Assembly: GCA_015295805.1 (NCBI GenBank)
Contig: DVEF01000018.1
Coordinates: 1 to 47,462 of the forward strand
Direction: 5' to 3'
Length of the DNA: 47,462 bases
Source: Geminocystis sp. M7585_C2015_104
GTDB lineage: Bacteria; Cyanobacteriota; Cyanobacteriia; Cyanobacteriales; Cyanobacteriaceae
Shown here piece after piece: positions 43,358 through 47,462 of this stretch (within the stretch, counting starts at the first letter, position 1; each line of letters opens with the position of its first letter). The notes under the pieces are model-generated. The model saw nothing but the letters and a program-made list of their open reading frames with translations. It made no database searches and was not told the origin of the DNA. A program made the translations under genes and the position numbers.

Positions 43358-46951
<3,594 letters not shown>

Positions 46952-46957
46952 TCAATA

Positions 46958-46977
46958 GGGTGGGCTCAGACCCACCC
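46958..46977 (+). terminator. Hairpin after gyrB
   Basis: GGGTGGG-CTCAGA-CCCACCC is a perfect seven-pair stem six bases after the gyrB stop. An A-tract rather than a T-tract follows, so termination may be inefficient or factor-dependent. Confidence 0.55.
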
Positions 46978-47015
46978 AAAAATCCCTCTAGACTTATTAT
47001 TGGCCTTTTATCTGT

Positions 47016-47462
47016 AACTATATTACTGCTATTGGTGCCAGTGACAGTGTTGTCTGGGGTGGTGGAAATATAAATATTCTTCGCCAACACAACAGTAGGG
47101 AAAATACCAAACGGGAATATGACAATACTGATTGTTTTCCTCTTAGCAGTTTTACTCTCCAAGATTTGATGACTATAGAGGAAGAGGTGAAAATTGTCTC
47201 CTTTGCATCCCCGAAAGAGGAATTTGACCGTTTTCTTCCCATCACCTGGGAGTTAGTATGGTTTTTGGGATGGTGTCTTGGGGGTGTTGTTACTGACAAG
47301 ACTAATGGCAGGGTTGACTTGTTTATAGAAAGGGGAAAAGAGAATTTCCTTGAAAAATTAATTGCGTCGATGGTGAGGGTTTTTGGTAATACTCCCACTA
47401 CCACCACCACTGCCACGGGGAAGAGGTTGTGGTTTAAAAGTCTCTTGGCATCTTCCCTGTTA
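47016..47462 (+). repeat. Partial second copy of the gyrB intein (endonuclease region)
   Basis: These 447 bases match 45581-46027 of the intein base for base in length. I count 15 substitutions and no indels, about 96.6% identity. The copy starts abruptly at AACTATATTACT (NYI, just after the HTH-like part) and reaches the window edge at a point inside the intein, so it probably continues. The reading frame has no stop across 149 codons, but no start is visible and a TAG lies upstream in frame. Nine amino acid changes against five silent base changes suggest little selection. It is a duplicated fragment or the start of a second element. Confidence 0.93.

Follow-up and report, generated by a model that had tools for sequence, protein, structure and literature searches.

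A probable pseudogene fragment of a GyrB intein in the spacer beside its host gene in Geminocystis sp. M7585_C2015_104

Introduction

What is a second copy of an intein's endonuclease region doing just behind the gene that hosts the intein? The question is raised by the right-hand end of the stretch of DNA analysed here (the window), which comprises all 47,462 nucleotides of contig DVEF01000018.1 (C18; forward strand) from the 2.82-Mb, 108-contig assembly GCA_015295805.1 of Geminocystis sp. M7585_C2015_104. Here, gyrB carries an in-frame intein, and the middle of that intein begins anew shortly after the gyrB stop codon (Table 1). A preliminary description of the locus had considered three possible origins: a partial tandem duplication, a non-homologous copy-paste event by the endonuclease, or a separate homing gene.

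Results

A 508-bp internal fragment of the intein continues on a second contig

Positions 45581-46027 and 47016-47462 are direct repeats at an offset of 1,435 bp, with 15 mismatches over 447 bases and no indels. A DNA search within the same genome returned the downstream copy at 97% identity to the intein over 447 bp (E 4.4e-214), and chance is excluded as the source of the repeat. The preliminary description had titled the feature a second, diverged copy of the intein endonuclease region, and rightly so: re-deriving the coordinates and the offset gave the same 447 bases, the same mismatch count and the same start, 64 bases past the gyrB stop at 46951, internal to the intein and without preceding extein sequence, and our own codon table likewise yielded nine replaced and five silent codons.

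Table 1. Features of the gyrB locus (positions within the window)
Feature	Coordinates	Strand	Remarks
gyrB (DNA gyrase B) with in-frame intein	43412..46951	+	One open frame; Pfam DNA_gyraseB, DNA_gyraseB_C, HATPase_c, Toprim, Intein_splicing
GyrB intein, 533 aa, between IVIM and TDADVDG	44927..46525	+	HTH-like segment and degenerate LAGLIDADG region inside
Donor segment, 510 bp	45581..46090	+	In endonuclease region; stops before second LAGLIDADG motif
Left part of gyrB/coiled-coil spacer (left flank of insertion)	46952..47015	+	No significant match to congener spacer
GGGTGGG/CCCACCC hairpin behind gyrB	46958..46977	+	Terminator-like position
Copied intein fragment, first 447 of 508 bp	47016..47462	+	Remaining 61 bp on contig C46 (L004:89-149)

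The hairpin behind gyrB lies in a region (46945-47010) that folds at -14.7 kcal/mol, no better than its shuffles, 42 of 200 of which are equally or more stable (z -0.79).

Since the window is a whole contig and 47462 is its end, the repeat only appears to run off. The search within the genome returned one further piece, the first 88 bases of the 4,229-bp contig C46, which equal 47375-47462 exactly and include, at alignment position 362, a copy-specific G in place of the intein's A. The copy runs 61 bases further on C46 until homology to the intein ends at C46:149, corresponding to 46090 in the intein, and spacer sequence follows. A donor of 510 bp (45581-46090) is thereby represented by a copy of 508 bp, two bases being missing from the last 61—either as two single-base deletions or as one 2-bp deletion plus one mismatch—and this loss throws the frame out, so that it meets a TAA within a few codons; the open stretch on C46 amounts to 43 codons. 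Contig-end overlaps are found elsewhere in this assembly, as 101 bases at the end of C46 recur at the start of C72; for the start of C18, no overlap partner of that kind was found in the assembly.

Under a tandem duplication, the preliminary description had expected the sequence to run through what remains of the intein, then the 3′ end of gyrB and another GGGTGGG hairpin. Extension past 47462 gave a different picture: beyond the 61 additional bases of the copy comes spacer, and C46 holds no second gyrB 3′ match, including directly beside the copy, where a WHO-type element might be flanked by a host-gene fragment. The end of homology at 46090, together with a spacer devoid of a second gyrB end, makes the copy a 508-bp internal fragment rather than the beginning of a tandem repeat with a 1,435-bp unit. 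A simple tandem duplication of that unit was rejected on these grounds, as its second unit does not continue.

The insertion lies in a spacer that lacks the copy in a congener

Searches returned a single other genome of the genus, a Cyanobacteriota MAG (locus L032 in JAUQQP010000051.1). Its gyrB carries the same intein, at 79% amino-acid identity to that of the window (the next nearest relative reaches 50%), and is followed by convergent genes for long coiled-coil proteins matching those on C46. C18 and C46 taken together are collinear with L032 over ~11 kb, which supports their join. In this one congener, the spacer between gyrB and the coiled-coil genes is without the copy, whose only substantial match at the locus is the intein itself. 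Comparison with a related genome, which the preliminary description had proposed, thus sets the same GyrB intein beside a spacer without the copy. The run of long coiled-coil genes convergent to gyrB is itself conserved (L004:274-4229 and L032:8393-13581); the three such proteins of C46 that we scanned gave family matches only below curated cut-offs.

Where precisely did the fragment land? On the right of the copy, the spacer aligns to that of L032 better than any of 1000 shuffles, whereas the 64-base left flank alone gives no significant alignment to it (606 of 1000 shuffles as good), and joining the two flanks brings no significant gain (341/2000 and 517/2000 shuffles; 378/2790 real 34-mers). 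With the right flank matching and the left not, the insertion can be placed in the spacer, and neither a clean empty site nor a precise target is claimed, the left side being without significant support in the flank alignments to L032. Target bases at the insertion point may have been lost. Inspection of the flanks of the copy revealed no exact microhomology at either junction, and no tandem repeats were found in the congener's spacer. In length, the spacer comes to 696 bp in the joined contigs (64 + 508 + 124), or 188 bp once the copy is subtracted, and to 385 bp in the congener.

The parent intein retains its splicing residues and has a degenerate endonuclease

The parent sequence has S1, TSSH in the TxxH block and a terminal HN followed by T, which we take to be its splicing residues, and matches Pfam Intein_splicing at 55.9 bits (cut-off 35.8). 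On this evidence it is an intein with the expected splicing residues, for which splicing is predicted. Between its splicing and LAGLIDADG parts, positions 45461-45568 resemble HTH_3 (20.1 bits, below the cut-off of 23, which two of three relatives scanned passed).

Motif 1 of LAGLIDADG reads LGWYVAEG in 29 of the 31 loci with this intein, a set that includes the window's; the two exceptions are the window (LGWCLG-GVV, unchanged in its copy) and L032 (LGWYLARG). Motif 2 was found by pattern in 27 of the 31 loci, 25 of them with GDG, the window with ADG and L032 with ANG; in the remaining four, the pattern matched motif 1 instead. The acidic residue of motif 1 is presumably catalytic, and the shared loss suggests that the parent endonuclease had apparently been deprived of a catalytic acid before the duplication. 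Across the genus (window 44927-46525; L032:6001-7581), then, the motif 1 acid is lost and the splicing ends are still conserved.

The copy has little to recommend it as a gene

Both ends of the copy are internal to the intein; it lacks the splicing ends and the second LAGLIDADG motif, and its first motif is degenerate. Its frame is open over the first 149 codons, as expected of a young copy of coding DNA, and forms part of an open frame that reaches the contig end after 157 codons. Translation in frame could begin no earlier than the TTG at 47166 or the ATG at 47169, 150 bases inside the copy, and a Pfam and NCBIfam scan of the copy gave no family match at E 0.001. What would be looked for in a free-standing homing gene or a WHO-like element, namely a complete frame and both LAGLIDADG motifs, is missing. 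What would be looked for in a pseudogene is present: an intact parent in the same genome, a truncated and disabled sequence, and absence from the spacer of the congener (one genome). Carriage by phage was considered as well, and one scan of viral contigs, with the intein as query, yielded no relative (0 confirmed of 7 candidate stretches).

The duplication appears young, with changes on both copies

With L032 as outgroup, the 15 differences resolve into eight changes in the copy, five in the intein and two without assignment. Copy and intein differ by a dS of 0.053 and a dN of 0.029 (ratio 0.55), far below the dS of 0.425-0.687, depending on region, between the intein and that of L032. If silent rates are even, the duplication would thus date back roughly one tenth of the time since the split from L032, an estimate that builds on five silent differences. 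Against L032, the copied region has a dN/dS of 0.30; the ratio is lower, at 0.06 to 0.08, for the splicing ends, and the exteins give 0.014 and 0.

One tract of 107 bp (45943-46049) is identical in intein and copy, and the remainder differs at about 4%; under an even rate, a tract like this has a P of about 0.026 (calculated with a 108-base tract and 17 differences over 509 bases). It may reflect later gene conversion, and it may also have caused the contig to break at this place.

A second partial copy is confined to the window's genome among the matches listed

Among 291 genomes from the order, 52 contain sequence that matches this intein with an E of at most 1e-12. A cut at 43% identity or more assigns 46 of them to the intein family, four of which (G164, G217, G223 and G253) hold incomplete pieces only; the remaining six of the 52 match only at 27-32%. 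Among the matches listed for the 46 family genomes, a second partial copy beside a complete intein was seen only in the window's genome, in a survey at E 1e-12 that scored the best 5 first-look candidates in some genomes and could therefore miss short extra copies. A candidate second case in G164, two intein pieces overlapping at query positions 351-464, was rejected, as the pieces are two overlapping contig ends: L061:1-399 and L062:2082-2480 hold the same GyrB intein stretch at 97.2% over 399 bp and are probably two strain alleles in a draft genome. G253 has two abutting intein pieces with an overlap of 5 residues.

Discussion

How did the fragment come about? Its most likely explanation, in our assessment, is that a 510-bp piece of the intein was copied once by a single illegitimate templated insertion, is non-functional and now persists as a pseudogene fragment. 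Sequence comparison provides the repeat, both ends of the copy, its location in the spacer, its truncation and frameshift, and the divergence on both copies; the single-event illegitimate route, as opposed to transposition or homing, is what we infer. Direct orientation, a nearby donor, internal ends and the lack of visible microhomology together fit a one-step insertion of this type. We envisage that, after the split from the one known congener, repair of a break or fork within ~1 kb would have taken the form of a homology-poor templated insertion, for instance by template switching or end joining. The piece of the GyrB intein would thereby have entered the spacer that separates gyrB from the convergent coiled-coil genes, a single time and in the same orientation as the donor, and would have drifted ever since.

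Two other routes would leave nearly the same product. They share the outcome, a pseudogene fragment, and differ from the one-step insertion only in how it was reached. First, positions 45581-47015 (1,435 bp) may have been duplicated in tandem and the rest of the second unit—the intein end, the gyrB 3′ end and the hairpin—deleted later. The junction at 47015/47016 is as such a duplication would leave it, and the spare part of tandem duplicates is commonly lost. Set against this general tendency are the need for two events, the want of any remnant of a second gyrB end after the copy on C46, and the requirement that the deletion end in the spacer to the right of the copy; we consider this course rather unlikely.

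Second, gyrB-intein DNA of a related strain may have come in by homology-facilitated illegitimate recombination, with a homologous join on one side and an illegitimate one on the other, so that part of one allele stayed behind downstream. Differences on both copies (eight in the copy, five in the intein) are what two alleles would give, and the idea resembles a model proposed for Vibrio effector-immunity modules in PMC5361080. Drift after a duplication in place gives an equal pattern, however, the fragment ends are non-homologous on both sides with no gyrB 3′ end, and no donor allele was found among the relatives, the nearest being the congener at 79% amino-acid identity and the next at 50%. 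This makes a related-strain donor distinctly unlikely.

Might the repeat be an artefact, that is, a chimera of the intein alleles of two strains? That C18 ends inside the copy could be read in this way, as could the inexact contig-end overlaps that occur in draft genomes of the order, exemplified by G164. Yet two junctions on two contigs would both have to be false, and at the very spacer where the congener has the corresponding sequences adjoining, and the break is explicable by the 107-bp identical tract. Judged by the synteny with L032, a misassembly is unlikely, and we give it little credence.

The endonuclease-driven copy-paste event of the preliminary description fares worse. Here, the intein's endonuclease would have cut a degenerate homing site behind gyrB, with repair from the intein. 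The joined flanks (around 47015 and L004:150) do resemble the gyrB homing site across the junction, at 22 of 29 aligned bases with a 4-nt gap, and 37 of 1000 shuffled sites score as high (reverse strand, 177 of 1000). Equal likeness was found in 1.0% of 11,804 control windows on the same strand and 1.8% on either strand, in 1.1% of 5,852 windows of like A+T, and in 3.3% and 19.7% under two other scorings. The likeness is post hoc and dependent on scoring, and represents a weak lead. Homing typically copies whole inteins from their borders, whereas the copy has neither border. Insertion driven by the resident enzyme is made very improbable by its apparent loss of the catalytic acid before the duplication, the acidic residue of motif 1 being missing in donor, copy and congener alike. 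A variant, in which the fragment is the trace of ectopic, abortive homing—perhaps with the endonuclease supplied in trans by a strain with an intact enzyme, and the break patched with an internal piece—strikes us as similarly far-fetched. If true, ectopic homing of this kind would show a bacterial intein on the way to a WHO-like element next to its host gene.

Finally, a separate free-standing homing gene, which the 157-codon open frame to the contig end and the in-frame TTG and ATG might bring to mind, is almost certainly not what we see, given starts that lie well inside the copy, a frameshift to TAA on C46, no second LAGLIDADG motif or splicing ends, and no family match.

Under the preferred reading, a one-step illegitimate insertion, the feature appears ordinary in kind, a duplicated and disabled gene fragment and as such an evolutionary scar, not a working element. 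What the analysis offers is the most likely sequence past the contig end and the removal of a candidate new homing gene, along with a caution that assemblies can break at a repeat of this kind. It also adds one bacterial example in which an intein would have left an inert fragment beside its host gene while its endonuclease was decaying in the genus, and the fragment could be used as an internal clock to time this decay.

How does this compare with known systems? In the titles and opening parts of abstracts that our literature search covered, no description turned up of a bacterial intein fragment lying behind its host gene; related situations are on record. The donor is a full-length member of a cyanobacterial GyrB intein family inserted at this same site; in this genus, its endonuclease motifs are degenerate. 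Where pieces of a locus are left beside or downstream of it, two precedents resemble the window's copy. For Vibrio effector-immunity modules, older 3′ genes are proposed, in PMC5361080, to stay downstream of a new insert; lacZ duplications of 109 to 950 bp are explained, in PMC3240628, by one crossover with a circular molecule that had been trimmed. Unlike the latter, which as presented there do not involve illegitimate joining, the copy has two ends that are both non-homologous to the target.

Among inteins, the Arth_1007 intein Arsp-FB24 is characterised in PMC3196547 as a non-splicing intein pseudogene with short exteins, 66 aa in total. Like the window's copy, it is decayed intein sequence outside a normal extein; the copy differs in being an internal fragment devoid of splicing ends and in lying beside its parent. 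A parallel in position comes from yeasts, where WHO elements, in the account given in PMC7282813, comprise intein-like endonuclease genes and pseudogenes directly downstream of FBA1. Their proteins are intein-zinc finger fusions encoded by genes of their own, often clustered and some with duplicated 3′ FBA1 fragments. Going by that account, WHO elements and the window's copy share a site just downstream of a host gene, and they part ways in what occupies it: here a single, end-less fragment of the resident intein, unaccompanied by a 3′ fragment of gyrB.
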